40,484 bases of DNA from a virus. Location: positions 1 through 40,484 of IMG/VR virus record IMGVR_UViG_3300047470_000359; one strand, given 5' to 3'. Below are positions 1 through 40,484 of the stretch, in pieces. A program made the translations under genes and the position numbers. The notes under the pieces are model-generated. The model saw only the letters and a list, made by a program, of their open reading frames with translations, ran no database searches and was not told the DNA's origin. Positions within the stretch are counted from its first letter, which is position 1, and each line of letters begins with the position of its first letter.

Positions 1-128
1 AAGCTCTGTGACACTGGAACAGAATTACACCGCGATTCTAAAGGGGTAAGGCAAAGTACTCAGGGCCAATGAAACCGGGCACTTCCTTACTTTGGAATAC
101 CCGGTTTCAACCTGCTTTACACGGTCAG

Positions 129-147
129 TGGTACAAAAATTGGTACA
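129..147. repeat. Left copy of the TGGTACA tandem, candidate attachment-site remnant
   Basis: Two TGGTACA units are separated by AAAAAT. The right end of the window, inside the last codons of the integrase (40445-40462), carries the same arrangement with one A fewer. The longest exact match around the second unit is AAAATTGGTACA (12 bases). Tyrosine-integrase phages often carry the att core at the 3' end of int, so this could be attL or a relic of another integrase gene end. A one-base indel and the short identity keep this uncertain. Confidence 0.35.
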
Positions 148-234
148 AGCTTCATTCCCTTCTTCGGCGTCCTGCCTACCGTTCGTCAGTTCCTAATACA
201 GCTGCTACGCTGAAGCCTCCAAGGAGGATTCGCG

Positions 235-444
235 ATGCCAAACTCAGACCTGCTCCCTTCCCTGCTATTCAAGATCAACGAAAACCAGCTCGCCCTGGAG
301 GCTGCCATCATGGAGCTCACGCTTTGGATTGAGCAGCGCGGAGCGGCTGAGGTCGGCGGCAATATCCGTGGCGCCCTTCAAACGATCGACAAGAACGAAG
401 AGTTCATCAAGATGACGCTCGCGGTGATGATGACGCCCGAGTGA
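235..444 (+). CDS. Small conserved protein, function unknown
   Basis: The product is 69 aa. The ATG is preceded by a near-ideal AAGGAGG (220-226), which supports the start. The protein looks all-helical and soluble, with no transmembrane segment or cysteine motif. It lies just downstream of the TGGTACA tandem, so it may be a cargo gene near a recombination site. I recognise no family. High-GC third positions match typical Pseudomonas coding sequence, unlike the AT-rich gene that follows. Confidence 0.65.
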   Translation: MPNSDLLPSLLFKINENQLALEAAIMELTLWIEQRGAAEVGGNIRGALQTIDKNEEFIKMTLAVMMTPE

Positions 445-746
445 TGACTATCGGCCAAAAGCGGACTTATGAAATACCCTTAGTCGTCGTATCAAGCAGC
501 TGAGGAGTCCGCTTGAGTGTTGGCGCGGCGACAATAAAATCGACGGTTTGATGGGCGATCTATTCATTATCATTTCTATCCATCACCTGCTGCTTTATTC
601 CTTCTCTTTGGCCCGAAATTTGCTAGGAGTATTCTTTACCGTCAAATAGACAACAAAAATATGAACGGCCAGCCGATTGTATGTAACACGTTAAAAAACC
701 CACAACAATTGTAAAAAAACGCATCCAAAAAAACGAGCCGCTTATA
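445..746. other. AT-rich intergenic stretch, no gene seen
   Basis: No convincing ORF is present. A 9-base inverted repeat (AAGCGGACT at 459-467 and AGTCCGCTT at 506-514) could form a long-armed hairpin downstream of the 69-aa gene, but no T-run follows. Base composition drifts toward AT before the radical SAM gene, which marks a composition boundary near 560-620. Confidence 0.5.
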
Positions 747-1916
747 ATGCATATGTTTATTGATATAGTTGGAGCTTGTAATTTAAGTTGCCCGTCATGC
801 CCAATGGGAAACTCTGAAAATAACAACTTTAAAAAATCCATGCAGATCGAGACATTCAGGAAAATAGTTGGAAAAGCACAACAAGAAAATATAGACTCTA
901 TTCATCTTTACAACTGGACTGAACCATTAGTTCACCCACGTATTGGCGAGTTTATTCAGGCAATAAACGCTGCAGGCTTGGCCAGCGGCATTAGCACTAA
1001 CTTGAATATCGCCAAGAACATGGAGCAAGCGTTGAGAGCTGAGCCCTCGTTCTTTCGTATCTCGCTGTCCGGTTTTTATCAAAAAACCTACGAGAAAGGA
1101 CATGTGGGAGGGAACATCGAAGCCGTCAAACAAAACATGATAAATCTGCATAACATCAAGCAGAAATACAATCTTAATACATCTATCGAAGTCTTCTACC
1201 ATCGCTATTTAGACAATCTGGAAGAAGAGGGGTTGATGCGAGAGTTTAGTGAGCGCCTAGGCTTCACATTCACTACAGGTTATTCGGTGATGATGCCATT
1301 GGAAAAAAACCTTGCCATAATCGAACGTGATCAATCCGTCACAGAAACAGATCGTGAAACCCTTAAAAGACTCGCATTACCGCTCTACGATGACCTGATT
1401 AATTTAATCAAGCATTATCCAAAACATGCATGCGCTCTAAAAGAGAACATGCTGGTACTCGACTGCAATGGAAACGCTGTTCTTTGCTGTTCTATTTTCA
1501 ATCAGTCCGAGTACCAAGTCGGAAAGTATCTAGAATTGCCTCTCAAACAGCTAACACACCTTAAATCCACTCAACAAAATTGCGTCGACATGTGCAATCG
1601 GTGTACACAAAATGGCCTCCACTCTTACTCTACAGCACCCGACCATGGGCCGATGGAGCGCCACGCTGTCAACCGCATCAATGATTTTCAACGTCGCAGC
1701 ACGCTAGGTCTCCCGATTGATAGTGAGGCTCTTGGACGGCAAGACGGCGAAGTCAGCGCAGCAAACTTTGATGAACTTCATTATCTGCAGTCGAACCTTG
1801 ATGTAAAGGCCGCAGTCTCCAGCGGTGCCTTCTCGAACGGTTATCAGCACTACCTATTCTATGGCCGTTTTGAAGGCCGTACTGGAGCGAGCTCACCCTC
1901 AGCACCCGAGAAGTAA
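747..1916 (+). CDS. Radical SAM/SPASM protein with C-terminal HYLxYGxxEGR repeat
   Basis: The product is 389 aa. C11, C15 and C18 form the CX3CX2C signature that binds the radical SAM [4Fe-4S] cluster. A second cysteine set (C229, C240, C247, C248, C279, C283, C286) fits a SPASM-type auxiliary cluster domain. Such proteins usually modify peptides or act in cofactor or polysaccharide pathways; the substrate here is unknown. Residues about 340-378 form an unusual tail with a YLQSNLDV...HYLFYGRFEGR pattern, a unit seen in bacterial surface-associated and glycan-related proteins. The gene is clearly AT-rich compared with its surroundings, which suggests horizontal acquisition. No good ribosome binding site precedes 747; ATG 753 is an alternative start. 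No partner peptide or transport gene is adjacent. Confidence 0.85.
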   Translation: MHMFIDIVGACNLSCPSCPMGNSENNNFKKSMQIETFRKIVGKAQQENIDSIHLYNWTEPLVHPRIGEFIQAINAAGLASGISTNLNIAKNMEQALRAEPSFFRISLSGFYQKTYEKGHVGGNIEAVKQNMINLHNIKQKYNLNTSIEVFYHRYLDNLEEEGLMREFSERLGFTFTTGYSVMMPLEKNLAIIERDQSVTETDRETLKRLALPLYDDLINLIKHYPKHACALKENMLVLDCNGNAVLCCSIFNQSEYQVGKYLELPLKQLTHLKSTQQNCVDMCNRCTQNGLHSYSTAPDHGPMERHAVNRINDFQRRSTLGLPIDSEALGRQDGEVSAANFDELHYLQSNLDVKAAVSSGAFSNGYQHYLFYGRFEGRTGASSPSAPEK

Positions 1917-1937
1917 AACATGGCTACAGGCGAAGGT

Positions 1938-2153
1938 TTAATATTGTTTCATGTGATCAAACATCAGTTCGGTTATTGGGAGGGGCGTGCGAAGCGTCAG
2001 GCCGTCGAAAATGAACGAGCCTCCCTGTTCGCCCCAGCCACCGCTGCTGTTGATCGCCTTGACGTCATCTTCGCGGACAGTCGATGGTTCGGACCACTGT
2101 GACCGAGCCACAGTCTGCCCGTGTTGCGCCAACAAACAACGTGCGAAATTCAC
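1938..2153 (-). other. Unrecognised 71-codon ORF, possibly a gene relic
   Basis: This is the only minus-strand ORF of note in the gene-poor stretch between the radical SAM gene and DUF1652. The encoded sequence has ordinary composition (segments such as GGWGEQGG and FDGLTLRTPLP) but matches no family I know, and there is no clear ribosome binding site. It may be a decayed fragment or chance. Confidence 0.2.
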
Positions 2154-2620
2154 TCGCAGCCCACGCCGTTCGTGGCTAACGGGCTGATTTGCGAATCTCC
2201 AAACCTAACGCCTGTTCGGCTGAACCGTGACCGAATTGAACCCGTATCTAACGGAGCCAGGAAATACCCTCGGGTTACCTTGGCGCAGCAGGGTGCGAGG
2301 CGGTCATCATCTAGCGTCCGTTAATGGCCGATTTCTTTCTCATGCGATGGGCTGCTTTGGGTCGTTTTAGGCCCTTCGCATAGGTAGACGCGACATATAA
2401 TTATGACGTCAACATGGGGGTAGACGGGGGATTGGCCTTTGAATCCAAGGGCCCAACCTCATGAAATCCCCGCAGCCCTCCGCCCTTCCCCGATAAATTG
2501 GCCCAAGAATTGGCCCAGCCATCTATGACGTTCTGTCGAACGATTTTCCAACACAACACCGCGACAGCGCTCCAGAGCGACCTTGCACAAAGCGCAGAAT
2601 TAATCAAACTCAAAACTCTA
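2154..2620. other. Gene-poor flank with a paired TTGGCCCA motif
   Basis: No supported gene was found. At 2498-2517 two TTGGCCCA units are separated by AGAA. Their geometry resembles the TTGGTACA pairs at 129-147 and 40445-40462. This could be a scar from the 3' end of another integrase or att site, but the sequence identity is limited to TTGG-three bases-A. Confidence 0.3.
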
Positions 2621-2860
2621 TTACGCAAATGATGTTTTCCTGGCCGCCATTTCGCCTCGCAGCTCATCAATTAGCTGTGCGATAGATCGGGCGCTATTCA
2701 GCTTCAATGTCGACACTGCGGTGACCAACAACTCGACCCGGCCTGATTCTGGATCAAAAACCTTAATCATCAGTGAGCCATCAGGGTTTACGGTGCAGGA
2801 GCAGGAAAGGGGCAGAAAACCACACTCAATGATGTGGCGAAGCTCAAGAATGGAGATCAT
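2621..2860 (-). CDS. DUF1652 family protein
   Basis: The product is 79 aa. It shows the pattern of the Pseudomonas DUF1652 family: an N-terminal ELRHIIECGFLP helix, a CTVNPDGSLMIKVFDPESGRVELLVTAVS strand region (given here as a span, about residues 22-50), and a C-terminal IAQLIDELR helix. Function is unknown. The family is common as small stand-alone chromosomal genes in Pseudomonas, so this is probably host DNA, placing the left phage boundary between it and the endolysin. A weak AAGGGCG precedes the ATG. Confidence 0.85.
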   Translation of the reverse strand: MISILELRHIIECGFLPLSCSCTVNPDGSLMIKVFDPESGRVELLVTAVSTLKLNSARSIAQLIDELRGEMAARKTSFA

Positions 2861-3168
2861 GACTTTCGCCCTTAAGGTCAGAGGGGATTGCTTCTTCCAC
2901 TAATAAAGGTAGCTGTTCAACACTGGAACGGTGCAAAAACCGACTAAATGCCTGACTCCGGAATGATTTTGCGGTGTCAAAGCCTGGGATGCCGCATAGG
3001 AATCGCCCAAGGCCTTTATAATCAAGGCCTTGAGCTACAAATAACCCCCAAAAATCAACACCTTTTGCGACTCTTTAGAACCCAATAAACATTGGTCCAA
3101 ACGGTTGCGTTTTGGGGAAGAATTTCCCGCAAAAAATCCCACCTCCGGCGTTCTGCCGATCGTTACCC
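2861..3168. other. Intergenic junction region, likely left prophage boundary
   Basis: No gene was seen. It contains a perfect 9-base-pair hairpin (3008-3016 with 3024-3032, CAAGGCCTT/AAGGCCTTG, loop TATAATC). That hairpin lacks a T-run on either side, so it is not a standard terminator. This stretch separates the presumed host DUF1652 gene from the last phage-strand genes. Confidence 0.4.
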
Positions 3169-3963: not shown

Positions 3964-4372
3964 AAGGCAGCGACGCGGCGTCCGGCGCCACGGGCCAGGC
4001 CACGGTGTCGGGGTAGCCCGGCTGGTCGGGAATGCGATTCAGCTCGACCCGGTACTTTTTCCAGGCCTTGAGCGCGAGCAGCTCCGCCGCGGTGATCTCG
4101 TCGATATCCAAGGCGTCCTGCAGCGGCGCGACCGCCTCATCGGCGTGCTTGCGCTCGACGCTCACCCGCCCCTGAACACGCTCGATCAGCTCCTCGCGGG
4201 ACGGCGGCGGTGGCGGCACAAAGGCTTCACCATCAAACACCCAACCTTCCTCGGGCAACGGCGCCACGCCGGTGATTTCGATGATCACCAGGTCAGGGGC
4301 GAACTCGGGGAGCTCGTCCTGCTCAAACCGCCAGTGCAAACGCTCGTCTTGGACCTGCGCAAATACTTTCAT
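3962..4372 (-). CDS. Tail fibre assembly protein (chaperone)
   Basis: The product is 136 aa from ATG 4372, which overlaps the fibre stop as ATGA and has GGAG eight bases upstream; a GTG at 4381 is also open. The sequence has an N-terminal beta-rich part with EGWVFDGEAFVPPPPP at about residues 42-57, then a helical AAELLALKAWKKYRVELNRI stretch and a PDTVAWPVAP end, all typical of phage tail assembly chaperones (Caudo_TAP/DUF4376 type). It probably assists folding or trimerisation of the fibre encoded just upstream. Confidence 0.85.
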   Translation of the reverse strand: MKVFAQVQDERLHWRFEQDELPEFAPDLVIIEITGVAPLPEEGWVFDGEAFVPPPPPSREELIERVQGRVSVERKHADEAVAPLQDALDIDEITAAELLALKAWKKYRVELNRIPDQPGYPDTVAWPVAPDAASLP

Positions 4373-5517
4373 TGGAACCACTCCACCAGAACAAACCCCT
4401 TACTCCCCGACGCGCCGACCGTGCGGCAGCCACCGCCACCGCCGGTGCCGTAACCGCCGCCCGGCATGGCCGCAACGGCGCCGAGGCGCAGGCTGCCAAA
4501 GCCCCCCGCCCCAAAGGCCGAACCGCCGCCGGCACCGCCCTGCTCACTGCTCGTGGCCGCCGGGTTGTACGCCTGGCCAGTCCCACCCGCGACGACCGCG
4601 CCGCTGGCCGCGCCTGCGGAACCGCCCACACCGGCCGAGACGCCGCCGCCCCCGCCCGCGGCACTGACCAGCGCGCCAAACGATGACGCGCCGCCGGCCG
4701 TGCCATTGGCACCCGACACCTGTCCACCACTCCCCGCGGCGCCGACTGTCACCGTGATCACCTGGCCCGGCGTCACGCTCACCGGCACTTTAATGCCCGC
4801 GGCACCCCCGCCACCGCCAGCGCCGGCCGAGGACACGTCGAAATAGGCGGCGCCACCGCCCCCGCCGCCGCACAGGGTGACCAGGACCGAGGTAATGCCG
4901 GCCGGCACGGTGAAGCTATTGTTGGCCGAGAACAACTGCGCTCCGCGATTTTGCAACTGGGCGAGCGTGACCGCCTGGCCGCTCTTGAGGGCGGGCGCCA
5001 CTTGCAGGGGCGCGCTATCACACGACAGCAGCACATAGGCGCCCGCGCCGCCCCATGACGAACTGTTCCAGCACACGGTGCAGATACCGTCGACGGCCAC
5101 TTCACCGCCCTGCAACGCCAGGCCCGCCAGGCCGATCAAGTTCGCCAGGCCCAACCCGTCGTTGATCGTCGACGACGCGGTGTTGGTGGTCTTCGCTTTG
5201 AAGCGCAGCACGCGGCCATTGACGCGGCTGCTGAAGGTTGGGGCGAAGGCCACCACATAGGCATTCACGGCGCCGGTGTCCACGGCGTAGCTGGCCGCGC
5301 CGGACTGGCCGATGACGCGGATCGCCTTCAGCAGCTGGGTCAAGTCCGCTTCGGCCGGCACCAGGCTGGCCGCCAGAATCACGTTCAACACCTCGTCGGT
5401 GATGGCGCTGCCCCAGGCCGCCGGAATCAACGACCCGACCTGCCCCGTCGCGGTGTTTTCGTCGACAAATTTGCCGGCGACCAGGCCGACGTTCGGCACA
5501 CTGTTCGGATAATCCAT
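4369..5517 (-). CDS. Tail fibre with glycine-rich tip domain
   Basis: The product is 382 aa. The N terminus (MDYPNSVPNVGLVAGKFVDE) is a typical fibre attachment region. The middle is a beta-rich shaft. From about residue 195 (FSANNSFTVPAGITSVLVTLCG) to the end it has many GGGG runs spaced by small residues, then GSKGFVLVEW. This is the glycine-rich C-terminal domain of many Proteobacteria phage fibres. In some phages such glycine-rich tips fold as polyglycine-II sandwiches and bind the host receptor. It follows DUF2313 directly and precedes its chaperone, so it is probably the receptor-binding protein. Confidence 0.85.
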   Translation of the reverse strand: MDYPNSVPNVGLVAGKFVDENTATGQVGSLIPAAWGSAITDEVLNVILAASLVPAEADLTQLLKAIRVIGQSGAASYAVDTGAVNAYVVAFAPTFSSRVNGRVLRFKAKTTNTASSTINDGLGLANLIGLAGLALQGGEVAVDGICTVCWNSSSWGGAGAYVLLSCDSAPLQVAPALKSGQAVTLAQLQNRGAQLFSANNSFTVPAGITSVLVTLCGGGGGGAAYFDVSSAGAGGGGGAAGIKVPVSVTPGQVITVTVGAAGSGGQVSGANGTAGGASSFGALVSAAGGGGGVSAGVGGSAGAASGAVVAGGTGQAYNPAATSSEQGGAGGGSAFGAGGFGSLRLGAVAAMPGGGYGTGGGGGCRTVGASGSKGFVLVEWFQ

Positions 5518-8036: not shown

Positions 8037-9148
8037 TTTTTCGACTCGTAGTCAGCAGGCAGCAGGTATTCGAAGTTGTCGGCCTTGCCGCCCTTCTTCG
8101 CCTTGCGCGCCTTGTGCGGATCCTTCGGTTCGGGCTCAAAGCAGTCCGCCGGCGCCACTTCCAATTTGGTCAACATGCCCTGATCGCTCAGCGAATAGGT
8201 GATACGGGAAATCAGCAGCTCACGGTCGAAGCCGATGATCGGATCAATCACCCGTACCAGGGTGTTGTGCCGCCACAGCTGGCCATTGGACTGGCGCCAG
8301 CCATGCACCGTGTAGGTGGTGGCCAGCGCCTTACCCATGCGCGAACCGCGCTCCCAGTTGGCCCGCGCCTGGGCCAGCTCGTTGGTCATCTGCCCGGTTT
8401 CATGAATGATCTGCACGCGCCGGCGCTTGACCCGCTCATCACTGAGGGTGGCGGTCACCTCGGAAGCCTGGGCGCCATATTCGGTGTCGGTGCCGCTCTT
8501 CTGCCCCAGCACCTGGTACTCGGAAAACACCCCGGAAAAGTCCAGGGCGGCGTCGGCCGACTTGATGTTCTTGCCGACCTCCAGCGCATCGAAGCTGCGC
8601 CCGCCGCTGCCAGGGCTGGCCAGCACCGCCATGCCGCGCGCATCGTCGGTGGAAAACACCCGGAACAACGTCAGCAAGCGGTCAATCGAGGCGAACGCCG
8701 TCTCGCCCGGCTCCAGGGTGTGGTCGGAGAGCTTGTCGCCTTCCGGTATCTCGCTGCTGACCGCAATGTTGTACGGCGCCGCCAGCGCCTTGACGATGGC
8801 CAACACGCTCTGATTGCTCCACTGCCCCGGCTTGTTCACCGCCGCGCAGTCGACCAGATCCGCGGTCAGCGAACGGCCGCTGATGGACAGGGTGATTTGC
8901 TTGTCGTCGTAACCAATCGGCGTGGCAAACACCCAGCCGGTCAGCACCAGGTCAGGCCCGATGCGCACCTGACACTTGGCCCCCTCGCGAATGACCCGCC
9001 GCTCCAGCTGGCCGGGCCATTGCCAGGTCAAACTGAGGTTAAACGAGCGCGCCTGATCCTCCAGGCCGGCGGTGATCTCCACCGATTTCCAGCCGAAATA
9101 ATCCAGGCCGTCGACCGTGAGGCTGACGGCGTTTTGTTCATCGGACAT
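8033..9148 (-). CDS. Baseplate hub protein (gpD/Mu gp44 type)
   Basis: The product is 371 aa. It starts MSDEQNAVSLTVDGLDYFGWKSVEI, with the family segments SLTWQWPGQLERRVIREG, GKNIKSADAALDFSGVFSEY and VRVIDPIIGFDRELLISRI. These identify the gp27-like hub that carries the spike. The C terminus is lysine-rich. It lies in the canonical order circularisation protein, hub, spike. Confidence 0.93.
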   Translation of the reverse strand: MSDEQNAVSLTVDGLDYFGWKSVEITAGLEDQARSFNLSLTWQWPGQLERRVIREGAKCQVRIGPDLVLTGWVFATPIGYDDKQITLSISGRSLTADLVDCAAVNKPGQWSNQSVLAIVKALAAPYNIAVSSEIPEGDKLSDHTLEPGETAFASIDRLLTLFRVFSTDDARGMAVLASPGSGGRSFDALEVGKNIKSADAALDFSGVFSEYQVLGQKSGTDTEYGAQASEVTATLSDERVKRRRVQIIHETGQMTNELAQARANWERGSRMGKALATTYTVHGWRQSNGQLWRHNTLVRVIDPIIGFDRELLISRITYSLSDQGMLTKLEVAPADCFEPEPKDPHKARKAKKGGKADNFEYLLPADYESKK

Positions 9149-9150
9149 GC

Positions 9151-10470
9151 TTACCTCTGGGCCAGTTTGATCGGCACGGCCGGCACAAAACCGGGATGGC
9201 GGATACGGTTGCGCTGCACCACCTCGGCCTCCCGGGTGGCATCACCAAAGCGCCGGTAAGCCAGCACCAGGACCGACAGCGTCTCCGGCGGGGTCACGTC
9301 GACCAGACGCACCCCCGCCGCGGCCACCGCGGTCAGGTGCTTGACCAGCGTCTGCCGGTAGTGGTTGAGCGCCTGGTAGTGGTCCGGGTCGGCTTTGAGC
9401 GAGGCGGTAAAGATCGCCTCATTGAGGGTGTCGCGCAGCACCAGCACGTCGTCCGCCACCGGCACTTCCGGGCGCACCAGCGGCTGCAACGCCTGCTGCT
9501 CAACCGAGGGGGCCGCGTTCAGCGTCGCCGGCTGCTGAGTCACGGGCATGTCGCTGACGATCAACCCGATCTGCACCAGCAGGGCGTCCTGCACCAGGTT
9601 GGCGGTCGCCTGCGAGGCGAGCACCGTGTCGTGCCCACCCAATGGGCTGAGCGTATCAATCGCACTGACCGCCTGGCTTTGCTGGGTCGCCGCGGCCAGC
9701 GCCGCCCGATAACCGCCACTCGACGCACCCGAGGTGGCGGTGGCACTCGACCCCGACAGCGAGCCTGAGCCTGAGCCTGAGCTGCCGCCACCGCTAAAAA
9801 AATTCATCCCCGAAAAACTGCTGAAGTAGCCGGTAAACAACGACGACAACGAGCCGGGCGAATTCATCAGCGACTGGGCAAACCCGCTGAGCGACGTGAA
9901 GGTGCTCAGAAACGGGGCGAAATGCTGCTGGATCACCCCGTACACCCCCGACAGCCGCGTGCGCAGTTGTTGCAGCCCAAGCCGGGCCTGGTTGACCTGA
10001 CCCATCGCCGACTGGTAACGCCCCAGCGACGAATCCAACAGGCTGTTGGAGGACGTCACCAACTGCTGCTGGCTGTTGACCCTGGCCGCCGGTGACTTCA
10101 GCGGCAGGTCGGGATAGAAGGTCAACTCGAACGTGACCATCCCGCCCTGGGTGCGCTCATGGGCCATGTCGCACTCGCCGACCTTGACCTGCAGGCGCCC
10201 CAACCAGGGATGCACCAGCTCGCCGGCGCCCGGCGTCTGCAACGCCTCGATCAGCTTGTCACGCCGCTCAAGGCAGTCATCGCCCACCACCCACGCGGTC
10301 ATTTTGTGCACGTGGGCCTGCTTGCCCATCTGCTCAAAAAACGGCGTGTCGCGCTGCGGAAATTCATGCAGCGGCCCCTTCATGCCCACCGGTACTGACG
10401 CCTGCGGAATCAAGAAACTGATCCCGCGGAACGAAGCCGGCAACAACTTATCGCGCCACGTCGCTGTCAT
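9151..10470 (-). CDS. DNA circularisation protein (Mu gp43/N type)
   Basis: The product is 439 aa. The N-terminal DNA_circ_N domain is recognisable from WRDKLLPASFRGISF through GGMVTFELTFYPD (about residues 4-138). A serine/glycine-rich linker (SGGGSSGSGSGSLSG, about 227-241) separates it from a C-terminal domain with LVDVTPPETLSVLVLAYRRFGDATREAE, a LysM-like tail-protein motif. The family is named from Mu-type N; in contractile tails the protein sits between tape measure and hub. Confidence 0.93.
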   Translation of the reverse strand: MTATWRDKLLPASFRGISFLIPQASVPVGMKGPLHEFPQRDTPFFEQMGKQAHVHKMTAWVVGDDCLERRDKLIEALQTPGAGELVHPWLGRLQVKVGECDMAHERTQGGMVTFELTFYPDLPLKSPAARVNSQQQLVTSSNSLLDSSLGRYQSAMGQVNQARLGLQQLRTRLSGVYGVIQQHFAPFLSTFTSLSGFAQSLMNSPGSLSSLFTGYFSSFSGMNFFSGGGSSGSGSGSLSGSSATATSGASSGGYRAALAAATQQSQAVSAIDTLSPLGGHDTVLASQATANLVQDALLVQIGLIVSDMPVTQQPATLNAAPSVEQQALQPLVRPEVPVADDVLVLRDTLNEAIFTASLKADPDHYQALNHYRQTLVKHLTAVAAAGVRLVDVTPPETLSVLVLAYRRFGDATREAEVVQRNRIRHPGFVPAVPIKLAQR

Positions 10471-35814: not shown

Positions 35815-36075
35815 CTATTCGGCAGCGAGGCTTCTCGCAATTTCCTGCAGCGCAGACGTGATGCTTTCTGATACCTCCTGCGCAGCAATAATGGAGCAAG
35901 AGCTGGTGAAGTCCATAGCCGCCGCCTTTATGAACGCGGCTATAAGTTGAGGGTTCTTCGCTGCGTACCCTTCTCCGAGTTCTGCATCAATCTGGCGAAT
36001 AGCTGCACGCAGATATTGGCCAGCGGTGTCTGGAGCTTGTCCAACCAAGGTGTCGTAACTTGCGGTAATAGGCAT
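35815..36075 (-). CDS. Small hypothetical protein on the opposite strand
   Basis: The product is 86 aa from ATG 36075; an upstream ATG at 36117 adds a poor N terminus. It is helical (DTAGQYLRAAIRQIDAELGEGYAAKNPQLIAAFIKAAAMDF, about residues 14-54). It is transcribed against its neighbours, converging on DUF2303, and could be a moron with its own control. The ribosome site is weak. No family is known. Confidence 0.6.
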   Translation of the reverse strand: MPITASYDTLVGQAPDTAGQYLRAAIRQIDAELGEGYAAKNPQLIAAFIKAAAMDFTSSCSIIAAQEVSESITSALQEIARSLAAE

Positions 36076-36151
36076 TCGCTTCACCAGTTCATATATGGAC
36101 GTCAACAAATACCCCACTTCAACGAATCACGCCAGCCGGCGAGGATCCCCC

Positions 36152-37093
36152 ATGTCTGTTTCATACGGCTCAGTCTGCTCGGGCATCGAGGCCGCGACGA
36201 TGGCCTGGCATCCGCTGGGCATGCGCGCAACCTGGTTCGCCGAGATCGAAGCGTTCCCCAGCGCAGTACTGGCCCACCACTACCCGAACACGCCGAATCT
36301 TGGCGACATGACAAAACTCGGGGCCCTGGTCCTAGCTGGCAAGATCGCCGCTCCGGATGTGTTGGTCGGCGGAACCCCGTGTCAGGCATTTAGTGTCGCC
36401 GGCATGCGCCAGGGTCTGCTCGACCCGCGTGGTGCCCTCACCATCAAATACGTGGAGCTCGCAGATGCAACTGACTATGTTCGCGCCAGCAACCGAAAGC
36501 CTCCCTGTGTCATCGTCTGGGAAAACGTCCCAGGTGTCCTCAGTGATAAAGGGAACGCCTTCGGATGCTTTCTTGGAGCGCTTGCTGGGGAAGACTGCGA
36601 ACTGCAGCCTTCAGGGAAAAGGTGGCCAGACGCTGGTTGTGTGTATGGACCCAAAAGAACAATCGCGTGGCGGGTCCTGGACGCCCAATATTTCGGCCTG
36701 GCCCAACGACGCCGCCGTGTGTTCGTTGTCGCAAGTGCTCGAGACGGATTCGATCCCACCGAGGTACTTTTTGAGCGAGAAGGCGTGCGTCGGGATAGCC
36801 CTCCGGGACGGGAAGAGAAGTCGGCACTTCATCCTACTCTCACGGCACAAGGGGGAGGCTCTCTCGATGACCGAGAGGCATATGTACTGGAGTCATCCGG
36901 GATTCGCCGAACCAGCGTGATCGAGTGGGAGCGGTGCCAAGGCTTTCCCGACAACTACACGCAGATCCCATGGCGAGGCAAACATGCAAACGAATGTCCA
37001 GACGGACCGCGCTACAAGGCGATCGGGAATTCTAAGGCGGTGCCGGTTGTCTGCTGGCTCGGGATGGGCATCAAAAAAGCGCTAATGAAATGA
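36152..37093 (+). CDS. DNA (cytosine-5) methyltransferase, orphan
   Basis: The product is 313 aa from ATG 36152 (GAGG seven bases upstream). C5-methyltransferase motifs appear in order: SVCSGIEAA (motif I, about residues 7-15), GGTPCQAFSVAG (motif IV with catalytic Cys77), ENVPG (124-128), AQRRRRVF (motif VIII, 184-191) and YKAIGNSKAVPV (motif X). No restriction gene is adjacent, so it probably protects phage DNA from host restriction or alters host methylation. The target-recognition region between VIII and X is short. Confidence 0.93.
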   Translation: MSVSYGSVCSGIEAATMAWHPLGMRATWFAEIEAFPSAVLAHHYPNTPNLGDMTKLGALVLAGKIAAPDVLVGGTPCQAFSVAGMRQGLLDPRGALTIKYVELADATDYVRASNRKPPCVIVWENVPGVLSDKGNAFGCFLGALAGEDCELQPSGKRWPDAGCVYGPKRTIAWRVLDAQYFGLAQRRRRVFVVASARDGFDPTEVLFEREGVRRDSPPGREEKSALHPTLTAQGGGSLDDREAYVLESSGIRRTSVIEWERCQGFPDNYTQIPWRGKHANECPDGPRYKAIGNSKAVPVVCWLGMGIKKALMK

Positions 37094-37101
37094 GGATGCG
37101 A

Positions 37102-37131
37102 TTGACGCTGGCTTCCAAATCCAGCATATAG
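37102..37131 (+). promoter_or_regulatory. Possible promoter of the AT-rich cassette
   Basis: TTGACG (37102-37107), 18 bases, ATATAG (37126-37131). The -35 is good and the -10 is poor. It lies just upstream of the TM-GAF gene, which would fit an independently expressed moron. Confidence 0.3.
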
Positions 37132-37158
37132 ATCACGGATAATTATGGAACCTGACTG

Positions 37159-38106
37159 ATGGACCTCAAGCAGTTAAACCTAACAAACAAAACCACAGAA
37201 GCAAACATCACCTCAGTTTCAATATTATTTGCAAACACATGGATGACCTTGATTTCGCCGGTTTTGATCGGCCTATTCATAAGCAAGTTATTTTCAGCGA
37301 ATAACAACTTCACGGGTAGCGAGACAGCATTCGCAGTTATAGCGATTGCCATTCACATTGTACTCGCCTTGATACTTTACAAATCGGGGTCGCGCCAGAG
37401 CAATTCAGTTGAAATTGACAACATGATTCACGAACTCGACACTTTGAAACAAGATGTGATCCCTAAAGCACAACAAATATTCGCTTGCTCCACAGCGCAA
37501 CAGATCGTCATATATTTAATGACGCTAGAGTTAGAATCCCGAATAAGGGAGATCAACTTGAAAGACAAAGATTATCCCGTTGCGCAAAGGTGGGAGGACT
37601 GGGAAAAGGGTCTAGAGGCCGTTTTGTCACATCTTCTTAAACATCGCGTGCAACTATTTGGATATACTGGCGAAAGCCTATATAACATGGCCCTCTATAT
37701 GTATGACAAAAAAGATGATGATCTGTTTATTATCTGGAGGAGGCATGACGATCGAATGTCAACATCGAACAGGCGATGGAAGCCTGGCCTAGGCCACGTG
37801 GGCTTGGCGTTCGTGCAGCAAGAAGCAAAAATTTGCCATGACATCTTCATGAGTACGGAATTAGCGAACTCATCAACCAATGATGAATCAGATAAAGCGA
37901 AATATAGATCTTTCTTATCCATACCTATAACAGACTCGTTTGGAAACAATAATGGTGGAAAACCCCTAGGCGTGCTAGTATTTACCAGTAGCAGCGTAGG
38001 GCAATTTGATTGGGAACGAGACAGATTTTTTACACTCACCATTGCCAAGCTGTTATCGATTTACATTGAAAGAAATGTAGCAGACTGGACAGGAGCAGCA
38101 AAATGA
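37159..38106 (+). CDS. Membrane-anchored GAF-domain-like protein, AT-rich moron
   Basis: The product is 315 aa. Two hydrophobic segments lie at about residues 20-45 and 57-75, then a helical linker (IDNMIHELDTLKQDVIPKAQ). The C-terminal part, about 165-300, has GAF-like features (LYNMALYMYDKKDDDLFIIWRRH, WKPGLGHVGLAFVQQ, YRSFLSIPI, GVLVFTSS). It could sense a small ligand at the inner membrane. The gene is AT-rich against its surroundings and is coupled to the next ORF, suggesting a transferred module, possibly defence or superinfection exclusion. There is no direct functional evidence. Confidence 0.72.
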   Translation: MDLKQLNLTNKTTEANITSVSILFANTWMTLISPVLIGLFISKLFSANNNFTGSETAFAVIAIAIHIVLALILYKSGSRQSNSVEIDNMIHELDTLKQDVIPKAQQIFACSTAQQIVIYLMTLELESRIREINLKDKDYPVAQRWEDWEKGLEAVLSHLLKHRVQLFGYTGESLYNMALYMYDKKDDDLFIIWRRHDDRMSTSNRRWKPGLGHVGLAFVQQEAKICHDIFMSTELANSSTNDESDKAKYRSFLSIPITDSFGNNNGGKPLGVLVFTSSSVGQFDWERDRFFTLTIAKLLSIYIERNVADWTGAAK

Positions 38107-38312
38107 GCAAGTTTAAATATGAAAAAGTTGCCATTGCGCCAGTAGCGTCAGCGCCAAAACGAGCAGATGGCGTTATTTCAGTGAGTATGAGTTTCGAAAA
38201 CTGCTTGGTAGAAAGTCATAAAAACAATGATGCCTACCTAGAAAGCTGGGTCGACACTGAAATTAAAAAAAGCAGCAACTATTTCAAAAAAGAAATATAT
38301 AGCCAAGATTGA
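38103..38312 (+). CDS. Small partner of the TM-GAF gene
   Basis: The product is 69 aa. It overlaps the TM-GAF stop as ATGA and has AGGAG seven bases upstream. It is soluble, with an alanine/proline-containing N terminus (MSKFKYEKVAIAPVASAPKRADG) and a lysine-rich C terminus. It shares the AT-rich composition, and a strong terminator closes the pair. The tight coupling suggests that the two proteins act together. No family is known. Confidence 0.65.
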   Translation: MSKFKYEKVAIAPVASAPKRADGVISVSMSFENCLVESHKNNDAYLESWVDTEIKKSSNYFKKEIYSQD

Positions 38313-38334
38313 TCGCCACACCGAATATCTAGAG

Positions 38335-38362
38335 AGCCGGAGATAATATCTCCGGTTTTTTT
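38335..38362 (+). terminator. Terminator closing the AT-rich two-gene cassette
   Basis: CCGGAGAT-AAT-ATCTCCGG followed by TTTTTTT. It is an ideal terminator 23 bases after the stop of the 69-aa gene. Confidence 0.92.
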
Positions 38363-38582
38363 ATAGATCATTAATAACGAGCACCAACTGCGCTTGGGCT
38401 GCTTCTTTCCATTACCCAACATCTGTCCGCGGTTCCCACCGCCCTCCCCTTCAGCAATCCCGCCGCGAGAGTAGCGGTTGCGGTCGGCAGCCTAGCCTCC
38501 CGAAGCCCCACCAAGCGCACCATAAGCACTACTCAGCCCCCTCCCCTTCAAAGTCAGCCGCTATAGCGGCAAAGGAATCGCC

Positions 38583-39093: not shown

Positions 39094-39435
39094 ATGGCAG
39101 CAGCAGAACAGATACCGGCTGAGTACCTGTCCGATAAGGTCGCCGAGAAGAACTTCGCGGAAATGGTCGGCACGACCCGGCGCGCACTCCAGGGCAAGCG
39201 CCAGCGCAACATCATCCCGAAGGGGGTGTGGAACGAGATCGATGGGCAAATTTACTACAGCATAAGGAGATATGAGGCATGGCTAGAAAGCCTTTGGGAT
39301 TGCCCGCCGGAGTTGAATTCGCGGGCCAGTCAGTCCGGATTCGCTTCACCTGGAATTTCCGCCGCTGCGAGACCCTCCCCTATCCCCAAACGCCAAAAGG
39401 CATTAAAGCAGCCGCAGATCTACGCGCTACAGTAA
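39094..39435 (+). CDS. Excisionase-like protein
   Basis: The product is 113 aa with GGAG eight bases upstream of the ATG. NFAEMVGTTRRALQGKRQRNIIPKGVWNEIDGQIYYSIRRYEAWLESLW (about residues 20-68) matches the DUF1233/phage excisionase winged-helix pattern. The remaining C-terminal residues are encoded inside the integrase gene in another frame and look unstructured. Xis bends DNA at the arm sites to drive excision. Confidence 0.8.
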   Translation: MAAAEQIPAEYLSDKVAEKNFAEMVGTTRRALQGKRQRNIIPKGVWNEIDGQIYYSIRRYEAWLESLWDCPPELNSRASQSGFASPGISAAARPSPIPKRQKALKQPQIYALQ

Positions 39436-40484
39436 TCAGCCTCATCAAGCACGGCGTGATGGACGACCAGCGTTACGCCGAGCTGTTCCCGAGCTCAACC
39501 TACTCCACCTATTCTGCGACACCGCTCTTCGGCGGCTATGCGCAGACTTGGCTCGACAGTCGGGAAGTCGTGGGGGGAACCCGGAAAAACTACCGGATAT
39601 CCCTCAACCTTTATTGGATGCCTCACTTGGCGTTGCTGCCGATTGATCAAATCAGTTCGGCAACGCTGCGAAAAATTGTAAGTGAGACACCGTGGAAATC
39701 TTCGACAGTGAAACGCTCGGCGATCCAGCGCCTGCACACGATGTTTGAGTGTGCGGTGAATGACGAGCTGATCACACGGAACCCGGTTGGCTCGATTGAA
39801 CTGCCGGTGAAGGCGAAGAAGCCGGTGGATCCATTTACGGTAGTGGAGGCGGATTTGATAATCGGGCACCTATATAAGGTGCTGACCGGTTCGATGCTGG
39901 TATACGCGGCGTACTTCGAGTTCGCGTTTTACACCGGCATGCGGCCAGGGGAGATAGCGGCGTTGCGCTGGGATGAGGTGAATACAGAGGCGCGCGTCGC
40001 CAACGTGTGTCGGATCGTCGCGGACTACAAGATAGAGGAGCGCACGAAAACCCGCGAAGCTCGGCGAGTCATGCTGAACAGCAGGGCATTAAATGCGATT
40101 GAGGTGGCCAAGAGTGTGGCCGATTTGAGGGCGAAGCAGAGCCGGCGGCATCACAAGCATTCACCGTACGTGTTCCCGCCGACCAAGAGCTTTGAGTTTA
40201 TCCAGCAGGCCAGCGTGACCGACAAACACTTCAAGGCGGCACTGGCTGCATTGAAGATCAGGGCCAGACGGCAATACAACTGCCGTCACACATACGCTAC
40301 CATGTGCCTCATGGCAGGCATGAACCTCGGGTTCATTGCGAATCAGCTCGGCCACAGCGTGCAAATGCTACTGTCGACCTACGCCCGGTGGATCAATTCC
40401 AGTGAAGACTGGAGCGAAGTCGGGAAGCTTGAACAAAGCCTGATTGGTACAAAATTGGTACAGACAGAAACCGTACCCCTCTAG
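39279..40484 (+). CDS. Phage integrase, tyrosine recombinase
   Basis: The product is 401 aa. The arm-binding domain (DUF3596 type: MARKPLGLPAGVEFAGQSVRIRFTW..., ETLPYPQTPKGIKAAADLR) is at residues 1-55, and a core-binding domain follows at about 84-175. Catalytic residues are Arg222 (TGMRPGE), Arg336 (YNCRHT; the first box II His is Tyr333), His359 (QLGHS) and Tyr368 (TYARW). AAGGAG lies nine bases before the ATG, inside xis, a 157-base overlap. The gene ends exactly at the window end with TAG, and its last codons include the TGGTACA tandem. Confidence 0.95.
   Translation: MARKPLGLPAGVEFAGQSVRIRFTWNFRRCETLPYPQTPKGIKAAADLRATVISLIKHGVMDDQRYAELFPSSTYSTYSATPLFGGYAQTWLDSREVVGGTRKNYRISLNLYWMPHLALLPIDQISSATLRKIVSETPWKSSTVKRSAIQRLHTMFECAVNDELITRNPVGSIELPVKAKKPVDPFTVVEADLIIGHLYKVLTGSMLVYAAYFEFAFYTGMRPGEIAALRWDEVNTEARVANVCRIVADYKIEERTKTREARRVMLNSRALNAIEVAKSVADLRAKQSRRHHKHSPYVFPPTKSFEFIQQASVTDKHFKAALAALKIRARRQYNCRHTYATMCLMAGMNLGFIANQLGHSVQMLLSTYARWINSSEDWSEVGKLEQSLIGTKLVQTETVPL
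40445..40462. repeat. Right copy of the TGGTACA tandem within int, candidate att core
   Basis: TGGTACA-AAAT-TGGTACA lies in the last codons of the integrase (encoding IGTKLVQ). It matches the left copy at 129-147 except for one A. attP often overlaps the int 3' end, so this may be an attachment-related site. Confidence 0.4.

Follow-up and report, generated by a model that had tools for sequence, protein, structure and literature searches.

A two-gene cassette that a temperate phage carries at its integration end is, on our tentative reading, a moron that encodes a ligand-gated membrane effector with two transmembrane (TM) helices together with a small regulator, probably directed against other phages. 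The window, by which we mean the whole stretch of 40,484 nt that was analysed, belongs to a phage whose host appears, from the nearest DNA matches, to be Pseudomonas or a relative. We infer the defence role from the likeness of the cassette to known two-TM effectors, from its moron character and from its neighbourhood. The anatomy that the original prediction gave to this cargo unit, namely a sensor with membrane helices, a coupled partner and an autonomous layout, was confirmed by a protein family, a predicted fold and a conserved context, and what was a loosely defined cargo gene can now be tested as a unit of two genes whose borders are known.

Architecture of the cassette and of the TM-GAF protein

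The first gene, TM-GAF (37159..38106, plus strand), encodes 315 aa comprising two TM helices, a long helix and a C-terminal GAF domain, and the second, p69 (38103..38312, plus strand), encodes a translationally coupled protein of 69 aa whose start overlaps the end of TM-GAF by 4 bp (ATGA). A putative promoter of the sigma70 type, TTGACG-N17-CATATA (37102..37130, plus strand), lies 57 nt 5' of the TM-GAF start codon. The pattern TTGAC[G/T]-N17-CATA[T/C/A]A recurs 54–59 nt 5' of the start in this cassette and in the related contigs L002, L099, L100, L101 and L102, and the promoter-like element is absent upstream of TM-GAF in the relative L103. The intrinsic terminator maps to 38331..38361 (plus strand; −18 kcal/mol, z −5.6); a simple scan overlooked this hairpin, which was picked up by folding and a shuffle test in which 0 of 200 shuffles folded as well. 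Terminator-like hairpins also lie 3' of the gene pair in several relatives. Because the promoter-like element is conserved in relatives and a terminator follows the pair, the cassette appears, at the sequence level, to possess a promoter and a terminator of its own. The GC content is 0.42 in TM-GAF and 0.38 in p69, versus 0.58 in the whole window. The promoter and terminator sequences, the deviant composition and the presence or absence of the cassette among sibling phages are the marks of a moron, as far as these can be read from DNA. The partner coupling, the terminator and the low GC content claimed by the original prediction were thus all recovered, the coupled partner being conserved in relatives as well.

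The contig L002 encodes the proteins with 84% (TM-GAF) and 77% (p69) identity to those of the cassette. Differences from L002 fall on the codon positions as 50/17/173 in TM-GAF, where synonymous sites are saturated, and as 10/6/25 in p69 (dN 0.12, dS 1.14), a distribution which shows that both are real translated genes under purifying selection.

Hydropathy placed the two anticipated membrane helices of TM-GAF at residues ~22–45 and ~54–76, forming a hairpin with a short loop (37222..37386, plus strand), and the flanking Lys/Arg residues predict that both termini are cytoplasmic. The Pfam profile GAF_2 scored 31.5 bits over residues 151–304 (37609..38070, plus strand), above the cut-off of 28.6; the PF01590 match was slightly below its cut-off. 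An AlphaFold2 model built from 12 sequences (mean pLDDT 79.8) contains a helix at residues 3–44, a single helix at 53–133 that extends the second TM segment into the cytosol, and then the GAF domain. A two-sequence prediction had been discarded at pLDDT 44.6, and the fold search on that model returned noise. In VIA-align 2, whose rows mainly span residues 103–313 of the 12-sequence model, solved GAF domains ranked top, the best match being 5hl6 (Z 19.4, rmsd 2.0, 157 residues aligned), with 3mmh at Z 19.1 (rmsd 2.5, 161 aligned). With a profile score above the Pfam cut-off and a GAF fold, TM-GAF belongs to the GAF domain superfamily, and the GAF-like sensor domain proposed earlier is predicted with confidence by the structure prediction suggested as a check. 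Since no enzymatic output domain was found C-terminal to the GAF domain, the TM hairpin would be the likely output, driven via the 80-residue helix.

The TM-GAF family and its small partner

Peptide-pattern searches with the cassette protein, or with an early alignment (A1), retrieved a single relative from viral contigs and no relative from bacterial genome contigs. The peptides used were poorly conserved and for the most part fell beyond the conserved GAF motif; their low yield does not show that further relatives are absent. A search at the DNA level for W-x-x-G-x-G-H-[VIM]-G-x-A-F then matched ten stretches in viral contigs, nine of which encode TM-GAF family proteins (L092 among them being the L002 contig); the tenth, L090, was dismissed as a chance match. 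With L102 and L103, which emerged from a profile search, the family comprises 12 contigs, with identities to the cassette protein as low as 22–24%. The family profile finds exactly one TM-GAF copy in each of these 12 records, and GAF_2 is present in all ten members scanned. Hydrophobic segments are visible by eye N-terminal to the GAF domain throughout the family, L096 being cut at its start; formal hydropathy covered the cassette protein and L002. A tblastn search of 50,697 phages and 72,556 plasmids returned nothing related, and a weak plasmid match (E 1) from Roseivivax was set aside as a GAF-containing protein of different layout that looks like a sensor histidine kinase. The collections that could be searched well are viral, all relatives come from viral contigs, and this sampling favours prophage contexts; TM-GAF relatives may have chromosomal roles too.

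The family motif W-x-x-G-x-G-H-V-G-x-A-F corresponds to residues 207–218 of TM-GAF, and residues W207, G210, G212, H213, V214, G215, D228, D245, Y249, S251 and P256 are invariant across the family. Conservation within the protein is highest in the GAF domain, at 46–85% identity to the cassette protein versus 25–84% for the TM hairpin in the eight nearer relatives. This motif, together with the partner signature described below, provides a means of finding the family in genomes.

Each of the 11 members that are not cut by a contig end has a small gene of 61–73 aa 3' of TM-GAF, at a spacing of −14 to +10 bp, and in nine of them the partner is homologous to the p69 family. p69 is conserved in L002, L093, L088, L097, L102, L103, L091 and L095. 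Seven partners align well, with S26, F31, E32, W49, E53, S57, Y60, F61 and I65 invariant. In one hhalign comparison the L091 and L095 partners matched the seven-partner profile with P 9e-4 and a probability of 23%, a statistic that alone is modest; we read them as homologous because their position, the tryptophan region and the intermediate L103 sequence agree. Alignment was also tried for the L089 and L096 partners and revealed no detectable homology to p69. When the partner alone was used as the query, every contig returned also held TM-GAF. The profile searches proposed for both proteins thus gave GAF_2 in TM-GAF and no Pfam match in p69, for which Pfam and NCBIfam also show no known DNA-binding or enzymatic domain; an NCBIfam mob_CxxC match was rejected as chance level.

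Genomic setting of the cassette

The cassette had been placed between a methyltransferase and xis/int. The upstream half of this claim held, as a C5 cytosine methyltransferase (36095..37093, plus strand; Pfam DNA_methylase 7.8e-33) precedes the cassette here and also in L002, L099, L100 and L102. The downstream half needed refining: a 157-aa phage ORF (phrog_16138) separates the cassette from the excisionase and tyrosine integrase genes (39094..40484, plus strand; phrog_9668 6.8e-36 and Phage_integrase 4.2e-19).

Two conserved blocks delimit an exchangeable cargo zone around the cassette, and the genes between them differ from sibling to sibling. The left one, a leader block at 36105..36156 (plus strand), recurs in many sibling prophages that lack the methyltransferase, and the right one, at 38538..38572 (plus strand) with the palindrome GCCGCTATAGCGGC, occurs in 20 of 80 sibling loci. 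Both blocks end in GAGGA or AAGGA with an ATG within a few bases, and both precede different genes in about 20 of the 80 sibling prophages. These blocks resemble module borders or shared leaders. At the left border an ORF of 100 aa was also noted on the opposite strand (35815-36117, minus strand; phrog_1231 5e-10). Among 80 loci with a related integrase, the cassette was found in one contig only (L079, which is L002).

In unrelated prophages the gene pair is again found next to integration or repressor genes. It lies 5' of xis/int in the cassette phage, L002 and L099, and, with intervening genes, in L101 and L102; in L104 it sits between the integrase and an S24 repressor, in L105 it adjoins an S24 repressor and a Mu-type transposase, and in L107 it adjoins a serine recombinase identified by Pfam, an arrangement that L108 shares as judged by its matching neighbour. 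The contigs L103 and L106 stop at or just past the cassette, leaving the downstream side unreadable, and wherever an integrase or repressor is visible the pair lies near one. The neighbourhoods of the homologues are therefore prophage integration and repressor regions rather than metabolic loci, in a search that covered viral contigs far better than chromosomes. Prophage-borne anti-virus systems often adjoin integration or repressor genes.

Other genes of the siblings were recorded in the same zone. L099 carries an AbiP/putAbiC-like gene (L099:3817-4677, minus strand; PADLOC 3.4e-10, Pfam 9e-15) about 3.3 kb upstream of its TM-GAF cassette, and L084, a sibling with the same integrase type, carries a TIR-TM gene directly before the methyltransferase (L084:4866-5669, minus strand; PADLOC E 2.2e-59). 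AT-rich genes on the opposite strand occupy the zone at L002:3515-4585, L005:2248-3159, L008:2667-3332, L099:5390-6106 and L022:3273-4010 (all minus strand); some of them have TM helices, most have no Pfam or PADLOC match, and they may be further unnamed cargo. The left end of the window, positions 1-3000, is likewise AT-rich, with a GC content of 0.46 over its first 2 kb versus 0.70 at 4001-5000, and is possibly another cargo or host segment.

Proposed function, alternatives and comparison with known systems

In the proposed mechanism, the moron cassette would be carried at the integration end of the temperate phage and expressed from its own promoter. TM-GAF would cross the inner membrane twice, with the single long helix linking the hairpin to the cytoplasmic GAF domain. 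What this domain probably binds is a small ligand, or else a protein, that changes state upon the attack of another phage; this change would alter the packing of the TM hairpins in a TM-GAF oligomer, and the repacked hairpins would cause membrane leakage or depolarisation and so stop the infecting phage. The probable binding site of p69 is the GAF domain or the long helix, where p69 would either hold the effector off or help it to recognise the trigger. Since no SMODS CD-NTase, class III cyclase or GGDEF domain was found in the 12 family records, some of which are fragments, we propose that the ligand comes from the host or a phage, or that the trigger is a protein recognised with the aid of p69.

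Several lines of evidence point to defence: the confident GAF model with its continuous helix 53–133 and GAF_2 in ten of ten members scanned, the strongest conservation in the GAF domain, the retention of a partner in 11 of 11 uncut members, the lysogeny-linked location, the AbiP/putAbiC and TIR-TM genes of the zone, and, by analogy, the layout in the Gordonia phage Finkle and the precedents discussed below (PMC9122126, PMC12642688, PMC12657218). On the other side, the records contain no synthase of the three families searched for, so that a host or phage ligand has to be assumed; most Pseudomonas-type members have as their nearest gene a methyltransferase, which serves phage self-protection rather than defence; and the small genes that occupy this position in L089, L096 and Finkle show no detectable homology to p69. 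A more far-reaching version, which we regard as possible though doubtful, is that the cassette represents an unnamed prophage anti-phage system, extending from proteobacterial to actinobacterial phages, in which a GAF domain gates a two-helix effector without a dedicated synthase and is triggered by a molecule from the host or a phage, or by p69.

Other readings of the same features are unlikely to varying degrees. The pair could reside constantly in the inner membrane and block the DNA entry or the receptor of related phages, a narrow superinfection exclusion in which the GAF domain would serve for dimerisation or docking and not as a trigger, with the partner as a chaperone or adaptor. Small inner-membrane proteins expressed from prophages are classic exclusion factors, and the promoter-like element of the cassette fits expression in the lysogen. 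However, a docking role alone is hard to square with a GAF domain that is the most conserved part of the protein and has invariant residues in the GHVG region, and we consider this reading unlikely. We give no greater credence to lysogenic conversion or prophage control, in which the protein would sense a host metabolite or the redox or nucleotide state and tune physiology or induction via its partner: GAF domains are general metabolite sensors and the cassette adjoins int/xis or a repressor in several phages, yet the partner has no known DNA-binding or enzymatic domain, and nearly all siblings that share the integrase type lack the cassette (present in one contig among 80 loci), which is therefore dispensable for lysogeny control.

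Two short coupled genes that always occur together, one of them encoding a membrane protein, also recall an addiction module for prophage maintenance, with TM-GAF as a membrane toxin silenced by p69 or the reverse. Membrane toxins are common, but here the large gene comes first and the small one second, a conserved ligand-type sensor would be unusual in a plain addiction module, and no toxin-antitoxin family was matched in Pfam or NCBIfam, all of which makes this reading improbable. Finally, the solved GAF folds nearest to that of TM-GAF include 3mmh and 3ksf (Z 17.6–19.1), two proteins of the free methionine-R-sulfoxide reductase type, and this would suit a membrane-anchored enzyme of the same kind. 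Free methionine-R-sulfoxide reductases act through conserved cysteines. As no cysteine is invariant among the 12 TM-GAF members and C226 alone reaches 90%, the likeness does not imply enzyme activity, and we give this reading hardly any weight.

Compared with known systems, the cassette matched no PADLOC 2.0.0 system model and gave only chance-level Csx1 (E 0.018) and Csa3 (E 0.041) hits, so that the earlier statement that no known system matches stands within the scope of PADLOC (2023), Pfam and NCBIfam. An identity with CBASS or Pycsar was rejected, neither a SMODS CD-NTase nor a class III cyclase being present in the 12 records, fragments among them, and so was an identity with Panoptes (optSE), the sensor being GAF by profile and fold and the coupled 69-aa partner having no Pfam match. 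The lambda RexA/RexB pair is a prophage two-gene module against other phages and resembles the cassette by description, with sensor and membrane protein on separate chains that TM-GAF joins in one. Gordonia phage CarolAnn gp43/gp44, again likened by description, is a further prophage two-gene module against other phages (PMC6426606). In location, the cassette resembles the P2/P4 and Vibrionaceae hotspots, small high-turnover loci that adjoin integration or repressor genes and hold defence genes, those of Vibrionaceae lying in cI-integrase hotspots (PMC9122126); these belong to other phages, and the main text of that paper does not mention GAF.

Outside the family, a matching layout was found in the actinophage Finkle (Gordonia; ON456347, our L109), where gp43 (two TM helices and a degenerate GAF domain) and gp44 (58 aa), annotated as membrane protein and hypothetical protein, occupy 8622-9590 and are followed by a tyrosine integrase. 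Finkle gp43 matches TM-GAF by fold (E 8e-8), with a weak GAF_2 match (E 0.027). The likeness thus covers the two TM helices, the GAF fold, the small downstream gene and the integrase, whereas the relation is by fold only and gp44 has no visible similarity to p69. SLATT proteins are predicted pore-forming two-TM effectors that depend on a signal in nucleotide-dependent conflict systems, although a fused GAF domain is not among their defining features (PMC7159879); a SLATT_5 match appeared weakly (E 0.0096) in one of ten TM-GAF members and in none of the other nine.

CBASS Cap15 (S-2TMbeta) and Panoptes OptE are effectors in which a cytosolic sensor controls two membrane helices, and they share with the cassette two TM helices, a soluble sensor and a two-gene operon (PMC12657218). 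Their sensor, however, is a beta-barrel and that of TM-GAF a GAF domain, and the partner of OptE is a nucleotide synthase (PMC12657218), while that of TM-GAF is a protein of 60–75 aa with no known domain. Cap1, a type III CRISPR effector, combines TM1/2 with a CARF-like sensor and stops phage by membrane depolarisation (PMC12642688). Its TM helix pair coupled to a cytosolic sensor resembles that of TM-GAF, for which we propose leakage or depolarisation; in contrast, the Cap1 sensor is CARF-like with DUF4579, its ligand is cA4 made by Cas10, and its abstract describes no small partner like p69 (PMC12642688). Cap1, Cap15 and OptE all depend on a messenger synthase, whereas the TM-GAF records hold none of the three synthase families searched for. 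If the cassette is a defence system, it would represent a GAF-gated two-helix effector that works without a partner synthase, and GAF, a very common bacterial sensor fold, would join the beta-barrel, CARF and SAVED domains as a sensor of two-helix effectors.
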